From Spirochaetaceae bacterium (GTDB lineage Bacteria; Spirochaetota; Spirochaetia; DSM-2461): a stretch of DNA of 37,184 nt. The stretch lies in assembly GCA_016744925.1 (NCBI GenBank), contig JADGDJ010000019.1:1-37184 (forward strand). Reading direction: 5' to 3'. The number at the start of each line of letters is the position of its first letter. Position 1 is the stretch's first letter. A program made the position numbers and the translations under genes. A model generated the notes under the pieces. That model had not been told where the DNA came from and made no database searches. It saw only the letters and a program-made list of their open reading frames with translations. Below are positions 17,409 to 28,847 of the stretch, in pieces.

Positions 17409-18281
17409 TCATGACTCAAATTGATCACTGAAAAAACCAATTTCCTCTCCGGGAGATTCAAGAGAAAACTTCCCCAGTTTTCCACCCCTCAAATCGAGCA
17501 GAAATAAGTTAATAGCCTTTTCGTAATCAATAGCACCACCGGAGATAAGGCATCCCCTTTTTTTCCCGATCAACTCTATAAGCTCTACCGTATCATCGGG
17601 TAGCTCATCAATCTTGTATCGCTCTTTAATCCGCTTCGGGTATTTGAGAACCATATACTCTAGACCTTTCATGGAAATTTCATCGAGAATCAGAATGGAA
17701 TCTTTGATGGAACCGAGCAGTGCCAGTTTAAATCCGATATCCTGATCTTCAAATTTGGGCCAGAGAATTCCGGGTGTATCATAAATCTGTAAACTATCCG
17801 AGACATTCAGGCGCTGCATATCCTTTGTCACACCGGGTTTATTTCCGACAATTGCTTTTTTTTTCCCCGCAAGGGCATTTATCACTGTGGACTTCCCCAC
17901 ATTGGGTATGCCGACAATCATAGCCCGTACAGGTCTTCTATCAATCCATTTGGCACCGACGCATAGGGTTTGGCACCCTCGGACAATGGCATTGAGGTTT
18001 TCTTTTGTCTTGGAAGAAACCTCTACAGGTAATCTATTGTCACCGAGAGATTTGAAATAAACCTTCCATTGTTCGGTCACCTGCTTATCGGCGAGATCCG
18101 ATTTATTCAATACGACGACTCGCGGTTTATCACCTGTCAGCTCATCGATTATGGGGTTACTGCTTGAAATGGGTACTCTGGCATCTAATATTTCTATGAT
18201 GACATCAACTTTTTTCAGATTTTCTTTTATCAGCTTCCTGGTCTTGTGCATATGACCGGGAAACCACTGTATGGGTTTCAC
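17409..18281 (-). CDS. rbgA: Ribosome biogenesis GTPase YlqF/RbgA
   Basis: QWFPGHMHKTRKLI, DARVPISSSNP, VLNKSDL, VGIPNVGKSTVINALAGKK circularly permuted GTPase. Confidence 0.93.
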   Translation of the reverse strand: MKPIQWFPGHMHKTRKLIKENLKKVDVIIEILDARVPISSSNPIIDELTGDKPRVVVLNKSDLADKQVTEQWKVYFKSLGDNRLPVEVSSKTKENLNAIVRGCQTLCVGAKWIDRRPVRAMIVGIPNVGKSTVINALAGKKKAIVGNKPGVTKDMQRLNVSDSLQIYDTPGILWPKFEDQDIGFKLALLGSIKDSILILDEISMKGLEYMVLKYPKRIKERYKIDELPDDTVELIELIGKKRGCLISGGAIDYEKAINLFLLDLRGGKLGKFSLESPGEEIGFFSDQFES

Positions 18282-20641: not shown

Positions 20642-21412
20642 CTAGATTTCAAGACCTCTTACCAATTCTCCCCTATCGCAGATGCGGTAAGGGATGTCCC
20701 CTTTATATCTTTCCTGGATCTCAAAGTCGACAACAGAAACGGAATTATTGTTCTTTGAGAGATGACATAGGTAAATCTGCTGTATGCGGCACGATGTATT
20801 TTTCGACAACCTGTCCAGAAAATCTCCTGTCTGATAATTGGATAGATGACCGAGATCCGAGCTGATTCTCTTTTTCAAAAACCATGGATATGTCCCCTCG
20901 TCGAGCATCTCCTCAGAGTAATTTGACTCGAGGAAGAGAATATCCGACTGAAGTGCCAAGTCGTACATTTTATCATCAACTACTCCCGTATCGGTAATTA
21001 CTGTAATTTTTTTACCACCGAGTTCAAAGAAGTAGCTGAGCGACGACGGAGCATCGTGAGATGTGGAGAAGGGTGTAAAATTGAGAGTCTTATAAGTGTA
21101 GTTTTTCATGGGAGCTACGGCTAATTTGTGAAAAACATCTTTTTTAGTGTATTCACTAATATTGAGATTCTCATGAATAACTACGGGAATCTGTCTCTCT
21201 CTGGAGAGAGTATCAACACCTTTAAGATGATCAGAATGAATATGACTGAGAAAAATAAACTCGAGATTTTCAGGATTGAAGGACATTTCCTTCATCCTTC
21301 GATTCAACTCTCTGGCTGAAAAGCCGTTATCGAGAAGAAAGGAGAAACCATCCAGTTCAAATATATAGGAATTGGCACTGGAACCACTTCCGAGAACAGC
21401 ATAACGGAACAA
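20642..21412 (-). CDS. MBL-fold metallohydrolase (YycJ/WalJ-like)
   Basis: FRYAVLGSGSSANSYIFELDGFSFLLDNGFSARELNRRM, FLSHIHSDHLKGV, TDTGVVD, LESNYSEEML. Confidence 0.88.
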   Translation of the reverse strand: MFRYAVLGSGSSANSYIFELDGFSFLLDNGFSARELNRRMKEMSFNPENLEFIFLSHIHSDHLKGVDTLSRERQIPVVIHENLNISEYTKKDVFHKLAVAPMKNYTYKTLNFTPFSTSHDAPSSLSYFFELGGKKITVITDTGVVDDKMYDLALQSDILFLESNYSEEMLDEGTYPWFLKKRISSDLGHLSNYQTGDFLDRLSKNTSCRIQQIYLCHLSKNNNSVSVVDFEIQERYKGDIPYRICDRGELVRGLEI

Positions 21413-21763
21413 TTATTTCCCCTCTTTTATCCACAGAGCCCAGACCTTCTGATCGTAGCCGACGGTTACTTCATTCCCATTCCTGATTACGGGGGTTTTT
21501 AACAGTTGGTTATTTTCCAGAACCTCTTCTACAGGATCAAAATCCATCCAGGCTAAACCTTTCTTTTTGTATTCTTTGGATTCAGTGTCGATTATATTGT
21601 CTTTGCCGATTTTGGCAGTTATCTTTGTGAGTTCCCCTTTGCTCAGGGGTTTCTCATTTAAATCAAGAAAATGAAATTTTACAGAACGCTCTTTAAAAAA
21701 CCGCTGCGCTTTTTTGGTATCGGAACATTTCTTTGTCCCTATTATCTGGATATTCATGATCAT
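21413..21763 (-). CDS. ArsC/Spx-family reductase-like protein
   Basis: IQIIGTKKCSDTKKAQRFFKERSVKFHFLDLNEKPLSKGEL...NQLLKTPVIRNGNEVTVGYD. Confidence 0.85.
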   Translation of the reverse strand: MIMNIQIIGTKKCSDTKKAQRFFKERSVKFHFLDLNEKPLSKGELTKITAKIGKDNIIDTESKEYKKKGLAWMDFDPVEEVLENNQLLKTPVIRNGNEVTVGYDQKVWALWIKEGK

Positions 21764-22069: not shown

Positions 22070-22924
22070 ATGGCAGGGACATCTTTATGCAAAATAAAAA
22101 TAATAGTAGATAACAAAGCAGAATCCCCTTTGATTTCTGAACATGGATTCGCCGCACTAATAGAATCCGGCGGAAAACGGATTCTTTTCGACACAGGTCA
22201 GGGTCAAGCTCTCTTTACTAATGCTGAAATACTGAATATTTCTCTGACAGAACTCGATATTCTGATCTTGAGTCATGGTCATTACGATCACAGTGGAAAT
22301 ATTGCCGCTCTCATAACGGATAATCCACAAATTGAATTTTTTGCACATCCCGATTGTCTGCAGAAACGCTATTCCTATCATGAGGGACAGCCTCTTAAAT
22401 ATGTGGGTTTGACTGAAATGGACAGAGATGCGATCCGGGGTCTCCCGTTTAATAAGATTCACTGGTGCACCGGCAGAACAAAAATAACTGATGGCATATA
22501 CATTACTGGATTTGTTCCCAGAGAGCACCAGCTGGAAGATACGGGGGGAAATTTTTATCTCGATCGCGGGATGAAGATTCCCGACATCATTAAAGACGAT
22601 CTATCGCTGTGGTTAGAAGGAATCAGAGGACTGACAGTTCTGTGTGGTTGTTGTCATTCGGGGATTCAGAATACCATAAATTATATCAGTTCACATTATG
22701 AAACTCCTGAGTTCGTAACTCTGGCAGGAGGATTTCACCTCAAAAACAGTTCTGACGACCGTATAGAATCTTCTATAAAATTTTTAAAAAACCTGAACAT
22801 ACATCACACTATTGGTGGTCATTGCACCGGGGAAAAAGCCCTGAAAATTTTTTGCAGAAGCCTGGGGAAGTCTTTTTCCGATTCTGAAACAGGCTTAACA
22901 ATAAACGTGCATATGCACTCTTGA
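22070..22924 (+). CDS. MBL-fold protein, COG1237-like (dihydropterin/RFAP-synthase-type) family
   Basis: LCKIKIIVDNKAESPLISEHGFAALIESGGKRILFDTGQ, LSHGHYDHSGN, LCGCCHSGIQNTI, GGFHL, IGGHCTGEKA. Confidence 0.87.
   Translation: MAGTSLCKIKIIVDNKAESPLISEHGFAALIESGGKRILFDTGQGQALFTNAEILNISLTELDILILSHGHYDHSGNIAALITDNPQIEFFAHPDCLQKRYSYHEGQPLKYVGLTEMDRDAIRGLPFNKIHWCTGRTKITDGIYITGFVPREHQLEDTGGNFYLDRGMKIPDIIKDDLSLWLEGIRGLTVLCGCCHSGIQNTINYISSHYETPEFVTLAGGFHLKNSSDDRIESSIKFLKNLNIHHTIGGHCTGEKALKIFCRSLGKSFSDSETGLTINVHMHS
22907..22918. promoter_or_regulatory. Palindrome copy 1: GTGCATATGCAC
   Basis: Perfect 12-bp palindrome in the last codons of the MBL gene, 37 bp upstream of the DUF1007 ATG and 2 bp upstream of TTGACA (22921). 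Confidence 0.7.
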
Positions 22925-22955
22925 CAGAAATTTTTATCTGCGGTAGAAAAGTTGT

Positions 22956-23591
22956 ATGTCTATAAAAATAATTGTATCAACTATTCTTTTCTGCCTCTTT
23001 GTGACCACTACAGCCTATTCCCACCCCCATATGGCAATATATGCGAGTTGCGAGTTCGATTTTGAAGAGAACGATCCTGTGGGATTATGGGTTAATTACA
23101 GTTTTGATCAGTATTTTTCAATCGGTCTGATCTCTGAATTTGACGTCGATGGAAGTGGTGAATTTAATGCTGAAGAAACCGATAAAATCTATAATAATGC
23201 CTTCATCTATATGAAAAATTACGGTTTTTTAATCAGTATTCGCGATAAAAACGGGAGGACATCCCCAGAAGTTGTGAGTGATTTTTCTGTATCGGCTGAA
23301 GATGATATCATCACATACCGCTTTTATATAAATCTGAAAAAAAGGGAAGAAAGGGAGTTGTATATTTCTGTTTATGACAGAACTTTTTACTGCGCCATTT
23401 ATTATACAGAAGAAACTCCCGTAAAAGTCCACAGTGAGCAGCAGGTAAAGACTCAATATGTCATAGAAGAAAATACCGAATATCCCGTCTATTACAATCC
23501 CTTTGCTCTACCGACTGATAACACAACTTATGACAGATGGGAAACGGGACTTCAAACCTATTATCCCAAGGAGATCCATTTTGTCTACTGA
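22956..23591 (+). CDS. DUF1007 family exported protein
   Basis: Signal peptide then AYSHPHMAIYASCEFDFEEN; precedes NicO-like transporter as is common for DUF1007. Confidence 0.8.
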   Translation: MSIKIIVSTILFCLFVTTTAYSHPHMAIYASCEFDFEENDPVGLWVNYSFDQYFSIGLISEFDVDGSGEFNAEETDKIYNNAFIYMKNYGFLISIRDKNGRTSPEVVSDFSVSAEDDIITYRFYINLKKREERELYISVYDRTFYCAIYYTEETPVKVHSEQQVKTQYVIEENTEYPVYYNPFALPTDNTTYDRWETGLQTYYPKEIHFVY

Positions 23592-24483
23592 AAGAAAAAG
23601 TGTTTTACTCGTGATAATTCTTCTTACGCTCATACTTTTACCTCTATATTCAAACCCATTCCTCGGCGGAGCGGGTGAAAATGCCATACCTACCGTACGC
23701 CCCCCCTCTTCCGGTGGTTTCTGGATTGAAAAACAACTGGAATTCAGAGAACTTATCGGCAATAGAATGAAAGAGATAAAAAAAAGTGGCAATACCAGCA
23801 TGCTTTGGGGAGTCATAGGATTCTCCTTTCTCTATGGGATTTTACATGCTGCCGGACCGGGACACAGAAAAACCGTTATATTTTCCCTCTTTCTGGCGCG
23901 TAAAACCCGTTGGTATGAGCCCCTTCTGGCATCGGGTCTTTCCTCAGCGGCTCACGGGGGAACAGCATTATTATTAGTTTTACTATTTCAATATCTGTTT
24001 AATCACATATTAGCGACAAGGATCAACAGAGTGAGCATCTACATGGAGGGAATAAGTTATATGCTTCTTCTTTGTATTTCACTTTTTTTTATCGCTGCTG
24101 CTGTAAGAGAAATTTTTCAAAATCAAAAAGTATATTATGAGAAGGAGACTTCCCGGGGAATATACTCCACTCTTCTTTTCTCCAGCTTCTTCCCCTGCCC
24201 GGGAGTCATTATGATAATGACTTTTTCAGCAGCTATGGAGGTTCTCTCCACGGGGATATTGGCAGTTCTCTCTCTTTCACTGGGTATGGGAGTGACCATT
24301 TCTCTGGCTGCCTATCTCGCATATTTTGGCAGAGAGGGGATATTCTCTTTTTTAAAAAAAGAAGAAAAACTCATTCGTCGATTTTCAACGATTCTGGAAT
24401 TGGGAAGTTTTATCTTTTTATTTCTTTTCAGTCTTTGGATGGCATATCCTTTTATTAAAGGACTGATTGCTGTTGACCTTTAA
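23581..24483 (+). CDS. NicO/RcnA-like nickel/cobalt transporter
   Basis: TTG start after aaggag; LYGILHAAGPGHRKTVIFSLFLARK, SAAHGGTALLLVLL; multiple TM segments. Confidence 0.82.
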   Translation: MSTERKSVLLVIILLTLILLPLYSNPFLGGAGENAIPTVRPPSSGGFWIEKQLEFRELIGNRMKEIKKSGNTSMLWGVIGFSFLYGILHAAGPGHRKTVIFSLFLARKTRWYEPLLASGLSSAAHGGTALLLVLLFQYLFNHILATRINRVSIYMEGISYMLLLCISLFFIAAAVREIFQNQKVYYEKETSRGIYSTLLFSSFFPCPGVIMIMTFSAAMEVLSTGILAVLSLSLGMGVTISLAAYLAYFGREGIFSFLKKEEKLIRRFSTILELGSFIFLFLFSLWMAYPFIKGLIAVDL

Positions 24484-24501
24484 ATAAAATCATATTACAT
24501 T
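24473..24501 (+). promoter_or_regulatory. Sigma70-type promoter for the NifX-like gene
   Basis: TTGACC - 17 nt - TACATT. Confidence 0.6.
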
Positions 24502-24505
24502 ATTA

Positions 24506-24517
24506 GTGCATATGCAC
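24506..24517. promoter_or_regulatory. Palindrome copy 2: GTGCATATGCAC
   Basis: Identical 12-bp palindrome, starting 5 nt after the end of the -10 box, 24 bp before the ATG at 24541. Confidence 0.8.
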
Positions 24518-24540
24518 ACCAAAAGATTAAGGAGTATACT

Positions 24541-24897
24541 ATGGAAGATTTTGATATGAGAGTCGCTTTTCCCACCAATGACAGAAACCAGGTTGAAGAG
24601 CATTTCGGACATGCTAAAGAATTCGCCTTTGCCAATGTAAAAGAGGGAAAAATCCTATCGACAGAATATCTGACACCACCTCCCCACGAACCGGGTGTTA
24701 TCCCTAAATTTGTCGGGGAAAATGGAGCAACAGCCATTATTACCGGCGGTATGGGAGGAATGGCTGTCAATTTATTTAAAGAACAGAATATTGAAGTTAT
24801 TCTCGGTGCCAAAGGTACAATCGATGAAATGCTTAAAACTTATGTCGGCGGCGATCTCGCCTCTACCGGTTCCGTTTGCGAACACACACATCATTAA
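24541..24897 (+). CDS. NifX/NifB-type dinitrogenase iron-molybdenum cofactor family protein
   Basis: MRVAFPTNDRNQVEEHFGHAKEFAFANV...GATAIITGGMGGMAVNLFKEQNIEVILGAKGTIDEML; C-terminal CEHTHH. Confidence 0.9.
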   Translation: MEDFDMRVAFPTNDRNQVEEHFGHAKEFAFANVKEGKILSTEYLTPPPHEPGVIPKFVGENGATAIITGGMGGMAVNLFKEQNIEVILGAKGTIDEMLKTYVGGDLASTGSVCEHTHH

Positions 24898-24900
24898 ACG

Positions 24901-24929
24901 ACAGAAAGAGGGATTAAACCCTCTTCTGT
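24901..24929 (+). terminator. Hairpin terminator after the NifX-like gene
   Basis: acagaaagaggg-attaaa-ccctcttctgt stem with a single bulge, between convergent genes. Confidence 0.65.
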
Positions 24930-24939
24930 TATCTATATA

Positions 24940-25377
24940 TCAATCATATTTTTTTCTGATGACTTCATTACAAAGGACGGGTGATATAAATTTTTCCCAC
25001 TCGGCGCTATTCCAGGTTTTTAATTTTTTATGTTCGATAAAATATTTCTGCGGGATGGGATGAGTTCCCGTTATAACAGGAATATCAAAACGGGATTCGA
25101 TATAATTCTTGAAGATTGAGATATGGGGACAAGGGGGATAACCGACAAGAAAACCTGTTGCAAAATGTATGGCTTCCACACCGTTTTTTTTCATCTCTTC
25201 AGGGGTATATTCTATATTACCACCGGGACAACCGCCACAGCTTGTATATCCGGCAATTTCAAGAGGTGTTGTGGCATCATAAATATCAAACGCCCCTTCC
25301 CTATTCTCCAAAGCTCGAAAGCATTTCCCTCCTGCGCAGTTTTTATATCTATCACATACAATAATGGCTACTTTCAT
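24940..25377 (-). CDS. CGGC domain-containing protein
   Basis: MKVAIIVCDRYKNCAGGKCFRALENREGAF...IAGYTSCGGCPGGNIEYTPEEMKKNGVEAIHFATGFL...PPCPH. Confidence 0.9.
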   Translation of the reverse strand: MKVAIIVCDRYKNCAGGKCFRALENREGAFDIYDATTPLEIAGYTSCGGCPGGNIEYTPEEMKKNGVEAIHFATGFLVGYPPCPHISIFKNYIESRFDIPVITGTHPIPQKYFIEHKKLKTWNSAEWEKFISPVLCNEVIRKKYD

Positions 25378-25441
25378 AACAACTCCTTTCTATCAAGTTC
25401 TTTACAGTAGAACATTATTTCACTGACCTGTCCATTATTAT

Positions 25442-25453
25442 GTGCATATACAT
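25442..25453. promoter_or_regulatory. Palindrome copy 3 (two mismatches): GTGCATATACAT
   Basis: Begins GTGCATATACATATTTAAA, which matches copy 4 (25507) at 18/19 positions. Confidence 0.6.
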
Positions 25454-25473
25454 ATTTAAATTTGCTAAAACTG

Positions 25474-25502
25474 TTGACAATAACAATCAGGGTATGTATA
25501 TT
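25474..25502 (+). promoter_or_regulatory. Strong sigma70-type promoter for the 25597-28847 operon
   Basis: TTGACA - 17 nt - TATATT. Confidence 0.75.
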
Positions 25503-25506
25503 TAGC

Positions 25507-25518
25507 GTGCATATGCAT
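25507..25518. promoter_or_regulatory. Palindrome copy 4 (one mismatch): GTGCATATGCAT
   Basis: Starts 5 nt after the end of the -10 box, the same offset as copy 2. Confidence 0.75.
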
Positions 25519-25596: not shown

Positions 25597-25878
25597 ATGC
25601 AGGGTAACAAACAGGGTCCCGAGAATAGAGGACCAAAAACAGGTAGAGGACTGGGATATTGCAATGAGTATGACAGACCGGGTTATGAAAGCAATGAAGC
25701 CCCCCAGGGGATGAGAAGAGGGAATGGACCTGGTATGGGCCGCCGTGGAGGCATAGGACCCGGGATGGGTCGCGGGTTCGGAAGAGGACGCGGAATGGGT
25801 TTCAATTCTGATAATAGAAATATTATCGGCAGATTAGAATCTATAGAAAAAAAATTAGAAAAATTGGAGGACAAATGA
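25597..25878 (+). CDS. Small Gly/Met/Arg-rich DUF5320-like protein
   Basis: MQGNKQGPENRGPKTGRGLGYCNEYDRPGY...GPGMGR repeats; strong RBS aggaggt. Confidence 0.8.
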   Translation: MQGNKQGPENRGPKTGRGLGYCNEYDRPGYESNEAPQGMRRGNGPGMGRRGGIGPGMGRGFGRGRGMGFNSDNRNIIGRLESIEKKLEKLEDK

Positions 25879-26240
25879 TTATAGCGTTATGCAGTACGGG
25901 CGATGCCATGGAATCACCGGTAGATGAGCGGTTTGGAAGAGCTGCCTACTTTCTTTTTTACAATACGATAACATCTGAAATGGTTTCTGTCATCAATGAA
26001 GCTAAAACAGCGAAAGGGGGTGCGGGAGCATTAGCTGTGCAGCTTCTGGTCAACAATAAAGCAGAACTTCTCATAGCACCTGAAGTGGGGCCTCAGGCAT
26101 TGGACGCGCTTAAAAAATTCAAGATTCCCGCGTTTAAACAAGGTGAAAACACAACTCCTGAACTTGCCGTCCTGGCATGGGGTAATGGTTCTCTGGAGAT
26201 GATTAAAGATCCGGGGAACAAAGGGCTGCATAAGGTATAA
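25875..26240 (+). CDS. NifX/orange-protein-like (dinitrogenase Fe-Mo cofactor family) protein
   Basis: MIIALCSTGDAMESPVDERFGRAAYFLFYNTITSEMVSVINEA...GGAGALAVQLLVNNKAELLIAPEVGPQALDALK. Confidence 0.9.
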   Translation: MIIALCSTGDAMESPVDERFGRAAYFLFYNTITSEMVSVINEAKTAKGGAGALAVQLLVNNKAELLIAPEVGPQALDALKKFKIPAFKQGENTTPELAVLAWGNGSLEMIKDPGNKGLHKV

Positions 26241-27095
26241 ATGATGAAGATTGCAGTATTGAGCGGTAAAGGTGGAACGGGGAAAACAACTGTCTCCAAT
26301 AACCTTGCCGCATTGAATTCAGATGCGATTCTGCTGGACTGTGATGTAGAAGAACCCAATAGCCACATCTTTATGAATCCCCGAATAAAGGGGGATGAAG
26401 ATGTGGCTAAAGACTACCCTGTCATAGACGAAGAAAAATGCGTCCATTGCGGGGAATGTGCCAGGTTCTGTCATTACAATGCCATAATTTCAGGACCTTC
26501 TGCCACAATAACCATGAAAGAAATTTGTCACTCATGCAGAGGTTGTGCCCTGGTCTGCCAACATGATGCCATCACATATAAGCAACGGGAGATTGGGAAA
26601 ATTTACAGTGGGACGAGCCGATTTGGAACAGAGCTGGTCTATGGAGAATTGAAAACCGGAGAACTTTCGGGAGTGCCCATAATTAATAAAATAAGGGAAA
26701 TGACCGGAGAAGAACATTCGATACTGATAGATTCTCCTCCCGGTACAGCCTGCTCAACAGTGGCAGCTGTGGAGGACTGCGATTATGCTCTGATTGTCAC
26801 AGAACCGACTCCTTTTGGTGTCAGTGATATGAAAATGGTAGTTGAGATGCTCAGAACCATGAAGATTCCCTTTTCAGTCATAATAAATAAAGCCTGGCTC
26901 GGAGACAGAGAGGTTTACGACTATTGCCGGGAAGAGAATTTGGAAATCCTCGGAGAAATCCCATTCGACAGAGATATTGCGGAAGCTTATTCCACTGGAA
27001 AACTAATTGTCGAATGCGATCCAAAGTACGAGGATATTTTTCAATCACTTTGGAACAAGATTCATTTTATTGGGGAGAGAATCCATGGATGTTAA
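26241..27095 (+). CDS. Mrp/MinD-type P-loop ATPase with two inserted [4Fe-4S] motifs (first copy)
   Basis: VLSGKGGTGKTTVSNNLAAL; CVHCGECARFC and CHSCRGCALVC; LIDSPPGTACSTVAAVEDCDYALIVTEPTPFGVSDM. Confidence 0.93.
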   Translation: MMKIAVLSGKGGTGKTTVSNNLAALNSDAILLDCDVEEPNSHIFMNPRIKGDEDVAKDYPVIDEEKCVHCGECARFCHYNAIISGPSATITMKEICHSCRGCALVCQHDAITYKQREIGKIYSGTSRFGTELVYGELKTGELSGVPIINKIREMTGEEHSILIDSPPGTACSTVAAVEDCDYALIVTEPTPFGVSDMKMVVEMLRTMKIPFSVIINKAWLGDREVYDYCREENLEILGEIPFDRDIAEAYSTGKLIVECDPKYEDIFQSLWNKIHFIGERIHGC

Positions 27096-27957
27096 AGAAA
27101 TCGTTGTAATCTCCGGTAAAGGGGGAACGGGAAAAACGACTCTTACCGCTTCTTTAATCCCCTATCTCGAAAATACAGTAGTGGCGGATTGCGATGTCGA
27201 TGCACCGGATCTGCATATACTTCTTCATCCCCGATTGACCAGAACAAGAGAGTTTATCGGCACAAAAAAAGCCACTATTTTTTCAGAAAAATGCTGCGGT
27301 TGCGGAAATTGTATCAATCATTGCCAATTCATTGCCATTAGTCCTGCTTTCATTGTCAATCATTTGAAATGCGAAGGATGCGGGGTGTGTGAACTAGTCT
27401 GTCCGATTGAAGCGGTGTCTCTCCATGATGTAGTGGTGGGAAATATCTACGAAGGTGAAACACCCTACGGGCCTATGATTCATGCTAAGCTGGTCCCGGG
27501 AGAGGAAACGTCCGGGAAACTAGTATCAGAAGTGCGAAATAGAGCCAGAGAAGTAGCCATTGAAAGAGGTTGTTCAAATGTACTTATCGATGGTTCTCCC
27601 GGAATCGGATGTAATGTGATCTCTTCCATTACTGGTGCTTCCATAGTCCTTATTGTCACAGAACCCACATTGTCCGGACTTCACGACTTGAAAAGAGTGA
27701 TGGATATCAGTGAAAGATTTTCCGGAAAGACGTATGTTGTCATCAATAAATATGATCTATCTCTGGATTTAAGTGAACAGATAGAGCAGGAAAGCAATAG
27801 AAGGGGACATTCGGTAATATTGAGATTCCCTTTTCATAAAAATATTGTAAAAGCAGTTACTGAAAAAAATATCCCTTCATTAAGTGAAAAGAAACTATTT
27901 GAAAAAGCCCGGTGGGAAGATTTTCTCAGGAAAATATCCGATGGAGTCAAAGTCTGA
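27085..27957 (+). CDS. Mrp/MinD-type P-loop ATPase with two inserted [4Fe-4S] motifs (second copy)
   Basis: ATG 27085 rather than the ORF-track start; VISGKGGTGKTTLTASLIPYL; CCGCGNCINHC and CEGCGVCELVC; LIDGSPGIGCNVISS. Confidence 0.93.
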   Translation: MDVKEIVVISGKGGTGKTTLTASLIPYLENTVVADCDVDAPDLHILLHPRLTRTREFIGTKKATIFSEKCCGCGNCINHCQFIAISPAFIVNHLKCEGCGVCELVCPIEAVSLHDVVVGNIYEGETPYGPMIHAKLVPGEETSGKLVSEVRNRAREVAIERGCSNVLIDGSPGIGCNVISSITGASIVLIVTEPTLSGLHDLKRVMDISERFSGKTYVVINKYDLSLDLSEQIEQESNRRGHSVILRFPFHKNIVKAVTEKNIPSLSEKKLFEKARWEDFLRKISDGVKV

Positions 27958-27960
27958 GAG

Positions 27961-28158
27961 GTGAATAAGATGAAAGGTAACGGAATGGGTCCGGAGAACA
28001 AAGGTCCCGGGACGGGTAGAAAACTGGGGTTTTGTTACGGCTGGGGTAAATCGGGATACGCCAATGCCGATGTTGCTGGTGCAATAGCTAAACCGGAAGG
28101 ACAATTCGAACATAAGTTAAAAGAACAATCTCACAAAGTTTGTGAACTATCAGTTTAA
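27961..28158 (+). CDS. Second small DUF5320-like protein (ATG start likely at 27970)
   Basis: MKGNGMGPENKGPGTGRKLGFCYGWGKSGYANADVAG, paralogous to the 25597 product. Confidence 0.75.
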   Translation: MNKMKGNGMGPENKGPGTGRKLGFCYGWGKSGYANADVAGAIAKPEGQFEHKLKEQSHKVCELSV

Positions 28159-28200: not shown

Positions 28201-28491
28201 ATGCCAAGAAGATGTAAACAGAGAAACTGCCGGAGACTGGATGGTAATAGGAATTTTAAACCGTCGGGGATCCCTGCACGAGAATTGGAAAAGACTGTAT
28301 TAAATCTCGATGAGTTTGAAGCACTTCGTCTATGTGATTATGACGGGTTAAGTCAGATAGAGGCGGGAGAAGCCATGGGAGTATCCCGTGGAACGATACA
28401 GAGACTACTAATTTCCGGAAGAAAAAAAGTGGTCGATGTTCTACTTCACTCAAAAGAGCTGATACTAATCAGTGGAGAAGATGTCCAGTGA
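28201..28491 (+). CDS. DUF134 family DNA-binding protein
   Basis: MPRRCKQRNCRRL...FKPSGIPARELEKTVLNLDEFEALRLCDYDGLSQIEAGEAMGVSRGTIQRLLISGRKKVVDVL. Confidence 0.93.
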   Translation: MPRRCKQRNCRRLDGNRNFKPSGIPARELEKTVLNLDEFEALRLCDYDGLSQIEAGEAMGVSRGTIQRLLISGRKKVVDVLLHSKELILISGEDVQ

Positions 28492-28847
28492 CTCCGGCTG
28501 ATGTCCTGAAAACTCTAGGCAATACTATGGCAATGAAACCGGGAGACTGGTTAGAAGAACAACTGTCAAAGGGAGAAAAGCCTGTTCTCATCGATTTAAG
28601 GGGAAAAGAACTCTGGGAAAAAGGTCATATACAGGGCAGTATTCAGGTTGCGATAAATGATCTCGTAGAAAAAGCTCATCTTCTGATTCCCTCAAAAGAT
28701 TCAACTATCATCTGTATCTGCAATGGGTCAGTACAGTCCGCAATGGCTACTGTCTATCTGAGGACTGAAGATTATTTAAATACTTATAACCTTAGTGGTG
28801 GATATTCTGCGTGGATTCGCAATGAACGACCGATAGAATCAATTTGA
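28488..28847 (+). CDS. Rhodanese-like domain protein (GTG start overlapping the DUF134 stop)
   Basis: KPVLIDLRGKELWEKGHIQGSIQVAINDL...TIICICNGSVQSAMATVYLRTEDYLNTYNLSGGYSAW. Confidence 0.88.
   Translation: MTPADVLKTLGNTMAMKPGDWLEEQLSKGEKPVLIDLRGKELWEKGHIQGSIQVAINDLVEKAHLLIPSKDSTIICICNGSVQSAMATVYLRTEDYLNTYNLSGGYSAWIRNERPIESI

Follow-up and report, generated by a model that had tools for sequence, protein, structure and literature searches.

The DNA analyzed here is a stretch of 37,184 nucleotides from a Spirochaetaceae bacterium (hereafter the window, meaning this whole stretch), in which a 12-bp palindrome, GTGCATATGCAC, and its variants accompany a gene module for NifX-type, Mrp/NBP35-like and other presumed metal-cluster proteins, among them a small helix-turn-helix (HTH) protein of the DUF134 family. 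We consider it very probable that this palindrome serves as operator for the DUF134 protein whose gene belongs to the cluster, and we propose that the cluster is an autorepressing module with a NifX-type sensor, an interpretation built on comparative sequence analysis. Gene identities in the module rest on Pfam domain matches, and the gene names given in the original prediction for this locus (a metallo-beta-lactamase-fold protein, MBL; DUF1007, NicO, NifX, CGGC, DUF5320, NifX, two Mrp-like proteins, DUF5320, DUF134 and rhodanese) hold. The module comprises the following features, the operators being predicted ones:

22907..22918: operator 1, GTGCATATGCAC, ahead of DUF1007-NicO; a 1-mismatch counterpart is present in the congeneric genomes G001 and G003 (L039:6294, L041:390)
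22956..23591, + strand: DUF1007 protein, predicted regulon member
23503..24483, + strand: NicO-family metal transporter, predicted regulon member
24473..24501, + strand: putative NifX1 promoter TTGACC-N17-TACATT from the consensus scan; its -35 box ends 27 bp before operator 2
24506..24517: operator 2, GTGCATATGCAC, ahead of NifX1 and directly downstream of the putative -10 box
24541..24897, + strand: NifX1 (Nitro_FeMo-Co domain), proposed sensor partner, of a family fused to DUF134 in 13 genomes
24940..25377, - strand: divergent CGGC-domain protein, probable regulon member; an exact palindrome precedes the CGGC gene in L181
25442..25453: operator 3, weak, GTGCATATACAT, in the divergent region between the CGGC gene and the operon
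25474..25502, + strand: putative promoter TTGACA-N17-TATATT (11/12) of the DUF5320-to-rhodanese operon; its -35 box ends 27 bp before operator 4
25507..25518: operator 4, GTGCATATGCAT, directly after the -10 box
25597..25878, + strand: DUF5320 protein, first operon gene
25875..26240, + strand: NifX2
26241..27095, + strand: Mrp/NBP35-like ATPase A with a ferredoxin insert
27088..27957, + strand: Mrp/NBP35-like ATPase B with a ferredoxin insert
27970..28158, + strand: second DUF5320 protein
28201..28491, + strand: DUF134 (short subfamily) HTH protein, proposed regulator
28488..28847, + strand: rhodanese-domain protein, last operon gene

Beside the module (20642-21763) lie a metallo-beta-lactamase-fold gene and, on the opposite strand, an ArsC/Spx-like gene, neither of which is preceded by the palindrome.

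The palindrome follows the short form of DUF134

Scanning of the window recovered all four palindromes at their predicted positions, two as exact copies (operators 1 and 2), one with 1 mismatch (operator 4) and one with 2 mismatches (operator 3); the extended consensus is TGTGCATATGCACA. Altogether five matches with at most 2 mismatches were found in the window against 0.6 expected, a number reached by 0 of 100 shuffles. The fifth (18246-18257, GTGCATATGACC) lies within a GTPase open reading frame (ORF) and is probably due to chance. In the 4.87-Mb genome, the exact 12-mer is confined to the two window sites and the motif is not scattered, while six more places carry it with 1 mismatch, namely 25507, an intergenic site each on contigs C58 and C330, and three positions within coding sequence.

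Among the 61 genomes of our class sample, DUF134 proteins occur in two forms: a short one (approximately 97 amino acids, aa) with the helix motif SR[GA]T[IV]QR, and a long one with SR[PSQ]TF-type helices, which in many cases carries a C-terminal Cys-rich extension. The protein encoded in the window belongs to the short, operator-linked subfamily, a grouping defined in this analysis, as it has 96 aa, the helix motif SRGTIQR, no C-terminal Cys-rich extension, and a palindrome ahead of its own operon (25507-25518) in addition to those at 24506 and 22907; it is 89% identical to the DUF134 protein of a Spirochaetaceae genome. An exact palindrome was found in 18 of the 23 class genomes with short DUF134 versus 4 of the 38 without it. 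Of the other five short-DUF134 genomes, four show the palindrome with 1 mismatch within the cluster and the fifth has a contig that ends too early, while the sites in the four palindrome-bearing genomes devoid of short DUF134 adjoin or fall in unrelated genes. In class relatives the palindrome lies in short-form clusters, ahead of NifX, DUF134, DUF5320 or DUF1007-NicO, and not near long forms; in L053 and L054 it directly precedes DUF134, though no NifX or Mrp gene was found in the stretch examined.

The association extends far beyond spirochaetes, to more than 10 bacterial phyla. Eighty GTDB loci, picked by alignment to short DUF134 alone and blind to the DNA motif, represent (by record titles) spirochaetes, Fusobacteria, Izemoplasma/Mycoplasmatota, Clostridia, Halanaerobiia, Gemmatimonadota, Zixibacteria, Latescibacteria, Aminicenantes, Acidobacteria, Fibrobacter, Margulisbacteria, Calditrichaeota, Nitrospirae and others. 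The exact palindrome is present in 50 of them and a copy with at most 1 mismatch in 63, compared with 0 for the reversed control. In 44 of the 80 loci it lies within 250 bp upstream of DUF134, its end being separated from the start codon by 8-31 bp with one exception, and no other 12-bp palindrome recurs there in more than one locus. None of 65 distinct long DUF134 paralogs has a GTGCATATGCAC-type palindrome. Moreover, when 247 genomes of the spirochaete phylum were sampled, only six proved to have short DUF134 (at least 112 bits, the next score being 93), each with a site no more than 2.5 kb away from the gene, and eight new short DUF134 genes from a previously unused phylum sample, reached via a Nitrospirae locus, have the exact site. 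Although single 1-mismatch matches do arise by chance within genes, the notion that AT-rich intergenic DNA has produced these palindromes by accident is vanishingly improbable: it is refuted by the excess in the window, the uniqueness in the genome, the counts among the 80 loci, the lack of any other recurring palindrome, and the low background of the corresponding 14-bp frame, TGnnC-N4-GnnCA, found in 0.17% of shuffled upstream regions. Hence, the genome scan and the footprinting both support the original proposal that one regulator of one module uses all these sites.

Covariation of the predicted operators with the DUF134 recognition helix

The window DUF134 matches PF02001 over residues 1-93 (3.1e-21; 76.2 bits against a cut-off of 27) and also Sigma70_r4 (8.7e-7), i.e., it has an HTH resembling sigma region 4. 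An AlphaFold2 model (AF2; predicted local distance difference test score, pLDDT, 88) places helices at residues 36-47, 52-59 and 63-83, and the recognition helix starts at SRGTIQR (residues 62-68). The long subfamilies likewise have dyads near their own starts, related to those of the short class and built on the same frame, TGnnC-N4-GnnCA, in which the bases nn differ with the helix motif. Short-class proteins (SR[GA]T[IV]QR) go with TGTGC-ATAT-GCACA (nn = TG), SRSTF[TS]R proteins with TGCAC-ATAW-GTGCA (CA), SRPTFTR proteins with TGAAC-N4-GTTCA (AA), and SRQTFGR proteins with TGAGC-ATAT-GCTCA or TGGGC-N4-GCCCA (AG or GG). Over all non-redundant loci we counted 76 full-frame dyads: TG in 58 of 58 for the short class, AA in 6 of 6, CA in 6 of 6, AG or GG in 5 of 5, and one dyad in a singleton class. 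The 75 dyads in the four named helix classes thus agree completely, and 0 of 20000 permutations were equally consistent, although the sequences are related and do not represent independent events, so that the permutation numbers overstate the significance. This relatedness weakens the permutation number, not the helix-operator pattern itself. The varying residues (64, 66 and 67 in the AF2 model) lie at the N-terminal end of the third helix, and the N-terminal end of an HTH recognition helix is the usual site of base reading. An earlier idea of outward-turned half-sites at long DUF134 loci was dropped, since all classes fit the single frame with changed nn. Long paralogs with palindromes of their own near the start were noted at L014, L018-L021, L026, L027, L031, L196, L199-L201, L209, L214 and L222.

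This covariation is the strongest evidence for the identity of the binder, as it singles out DUF134 rather than another protein, and together with the conservation of the sites it strongly argues for DUF134 as the protein that would bind the palindrome; what the original prediction had mentioned only in passing is thereby strengthened considerably. Alternatively, a regulator encoded elsewhere might bind the palindrome, with DUF134 being merely one of its target genes. DUF134 is not the first gene of the window operon and its binding is a prediction only, which would suit such a regulator; however, the palindrome tracks short DUF134 across phyla, even at loci without other targets, and a change of operator bases with the DUF134 recognition helix is not predicted by an unlinked regulator. 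Hence, we regard this alternative as improbable.

Several observations nevertheless weigh against DUF134 acting through these sites in the simple form proposed here. The window DUF134 is the sixth gene of its operon and does not lie beside a site. No site was found in L120, L132 and L155, nor in some held-out loci (L275, L286 and L287). In roughly half of the short loci a complete 14-bp frame is missing from the nearest 160 bp, for the most part since the site stands ahead of a different cluster gene or deviates by a single base. Finally, the short DUF134 genes of Bipolaricaulota have an asymmetric variant, AAGCATATGCAC, located further upstream. Variants resembling AAGCATATGCAC were seen at varying distance, despite an SRGT[IV]QR helix, in most of L132, L133, L135, L141, L152, L168-L170, L172 and L176, a set of Bipolaricaulota-type loci plus one labelled Neomarinimicrobiota.

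Position of the sites relative to promoters

Of 43 sites ahead of DUF134, 42 have a TTGACA box (at most 1 mismatch) upstream of the palindrome, whereas shuffled flanks reached 4.6 on average and 10 at most. In most cases 23 or 29 bp separate the end of the box from the palindrome, and with this nearly fixed spacing the palindrome would abut or follow the -10 box and cover the transcription start, which is a repressor position. In the SRSTF class the dyad lies directly after TTGAC, between -35 and -10. A promoter-consensus scan of the window found no more promoters in the region than in shuffled sequence. Sites 24506 and 25507 directly follow a putative -10 box; 22907 instead overlaps the upstream MBL ORF (22070-22924) at its 3' end and sits immediately before a possible -35 box (22921-22926) rather than over +1.

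The latter position is activator-like, and sigma-region-4-like domains are able to contact RNA polymerase, both of which would suit a DUF134 that binds the site and activates transcription. We consider activation unlikely, as 42 of the 43 autoregulatory sites come after the -35 box and fall on -10/+1 or on the early part of the transcript, where a bound protein would block polymerase, as would one at the SRSTF-class dyads; moreover, promoters with consensus -35 boxes would not need an activator. Since the geometry is mostly repressor-like and 22907 differs, we propose with moderate confidence that DUF134 acts as a repressor. The short distance between palindrome and DUF134 start codon, often 12-23 nucleotides, could also speak for a function in RNA, as a hairpin of the 5' untranslated region or an RNA-binding site. 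Such a function is, however, very unlikely given that the stem would have just 4-5 bp with an ATAT loop, that sites also lie 37 to more than 100 bp from genes and between divergent genes, that there is no Rfam match, and that an HTH recognition helix covaries with the sequence. As a further observation, promoters with a full palindrome in L119, L121, L123, L126 and L178 also carry a half-operator, CATATGCACA, that overlaps their -35 box (TTGACATATGCACA).

A NifX-type protein as candidate sensor

DUF134 and a NifX domain form a single ORF in 13 loci (L122:5989-6675, L125, L129, L131, L134, L139, L142, L148, L158, L164, L167, L171 and L182), with both domains above the Pfam cut-offs in the three that were tested. 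In 12 of the 13 fusions a AAAGGAGA-like sequence resembling a ribosome-binding site, followed by an in-frame ATG, is kept at the junction, and free NifX may therefore also be made besides the fusion. Moreover, a NifX-domain gene often follows a DUF134 gene that had first seemed to stand alone. For MrpORP, binding of an Fe-S cluster by the Di-Nase (NifX-type) domain has been shown in vitro (PMC6345978). Taken with the fusions, this suggests that a NifX-type protein is the sensor of the DUF134 system, with NifX1 as a co-sensor in the window and an Fe-S or related metal cluster as the signal. Cys45 of DUF134 is nearly but not strictly invariant; hence, DUF134 itself may not be the sensor.

Further candidate targets in relatives

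In four spirochaete genomes an exact palindrome precedes a gene for a 125-139 aa protein with a PNPOx fold (flavin split-barrel, HutZ-like; L070:6495, L100:5001, L101:5001 and L103:5001, one of them near DUF1007-NicO), which is a predicted further regulon member in these relatives. In the genome under study (L003, C58:5501-5512), an Mrp/ApbC-type gene, encoding an Fe-S carrier with FeS_assembly_P, ParA/NUBPL and GBBH-like domains, is preceded at 13 bp by GTGCATGTGCAC. The site reads GTGCACATGCAC in this genome and ATGCATATACAC in the congeneric G001 and G003, and none was found in G005, G010 and G014; the gene is accordingly a candidate target within its own genus only. On C330, the 1-mismatch site stands ahead of a gene for a small protein rich in Cys; relatives do not share this target, which makes the gene a weak candidate. 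The description of the regulon as local is therefore nearly right, except that relatives add the PNPOx-fold gene, and the genus the Mrp/ApbC gene, at other genome positions. Two groups of exact palindromes were rejected as targets: those at pheT (L102 and L105, the latter judged by its neighbourhood), which are part of a longer hairpin, GGAATGGTGCATATGCACCATTCC, that is probably a terminator, and those in L106-L109, which lie in or beside unrelated genes.

Proposed mechanism and comparison with known systems

According to the mechanism we propose, DUF134 probably binds as a dimer, with one sigma-region-4-like HTH per half-site TGTGC, and would occupy the -10/+1 region of sigma-70-type promoters, thereby repressing the operon to which its gene belongs as well as NifX1, the divergent CGGC gene and DUF1007-NicO. 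The NifX-type (Di-Nase) protein, separate here and fused in other phyla, would probably monitor an Fe-S or other metal cluster and control release according to its state; the Mrp/NifX cluster-handling module would thereby come under feedback control. We lean only slightly toward a broader generalization, in which DUF134 proteins would be widespread regulators that share one frame, TGnnC-ATAW-GnnCA, with two bases read by the N-terminus of the recognition helix, and in which the short form together with NifX/Di-Nase would make up a new class of Fe-S/metal-cluster sensors controlling Mrp/NifX trafficking in many phyla.

These findings offer, for a conserved family present in bacteria and archaea, a function that can be tested, together with a binding site and a code of specificity. 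They also point to a candidate regulon for the metal-cluster genes of the NifX/Mrp (ORP-like) kind in anaerobes, which are poorly understood. Judging from the DUF134-NifX fusions, cluster-binding domains of the NifX type seem able to serve as regulatory sensors; if true, this role would explain the NifX proteins in many genomes that lack nitrogen fixation. In the open-access papers examined, DUF134/UPF0251/COG1342 appears only as an annotation or list entry, with no target or operator, though work elsewhere is possible, and the motif is nowhere reported there as a bacterial regulatory site. Autoregulated HTH repressors with palindromic operators are a known kind of system; the family, its operator code, the regulon and the proposed NifX sensor appear to be new.

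By profile, the window protein is a member of DUF134/UPF0251/COG1342 (PF02001), annotated as 'predicted DNA-binding protein'; beyond this annotation, one subfamily is linked here to an operator and a regulon, and three others to related operators. The best PDB sequence match of the HTH (2.7e-6) is DeoR of Bacillus subtilis (SorC family; PDB 7bhy/8r7y), which is also a close structural neighbour (root-mean-square deviation 0.6) and a repressor acting on a palindromic operator, as proposed for DUF134. DeoR, however, has a sugar-binding C-terminal domain, which Pfam does not find in the 96-aa, single-domain DUF134 (in some genomes fused to a NifX domain), so that the protein does not belong to the DeoR/SorC family. 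With sigma region 4 (extracytoplasmic function sigma factors; E. coli sigma-E region 4 on -35 DNA, 2h27) DUF134 shares the HTH fold and the Sigma70_r4 match. Yet Pfam finds in the window DUF134 neither region 2 nor another sigma domain but the region-4-like HTH alone, unlike in a sigma-70 factor, and the DUF134 sites are dyads over -10/+1 rather than -35 elements. IscR (Rrf2 family) is an Fe-S-responsive repressor of Fe-S biogenesis, and the logic proposed here is alike: a repressor that responds to a cluster and feeds back on genes for cluster handling, among them those for Mrp/NBP35 ATPases. The fold of DUF134 is nevertheless unrelated: Pfam gives no Rrf2 match, which sets DUF134 apart from the IscR/Rrf2 family, the fold neighbours are sigma region 4 and the DeoR HTH, and the proposed sensor is a NifX/Di-Nase domain with a putative cofactor. 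No sigma-54 activator is found among the annotated cluster genes (a sigma-54 promoter scan was not made), and the operon has the putative promoter TTGACA-N17-TATATT. The ORP operons of Desulfovibrio (MrpORP, Orp3/4/8; PMC6345978) have gene types in common with the module, namely Mrp/NBP35 ATPases, ferredoxin-bearing Mrp relatives and Di-Nase/NifX proteins, but while they use a sigma-54 promoter with its cognate regulator (PMC6345978), the operons described here have putative sigma-70-like TTGACA promoters with a predicted DUF134 operator.

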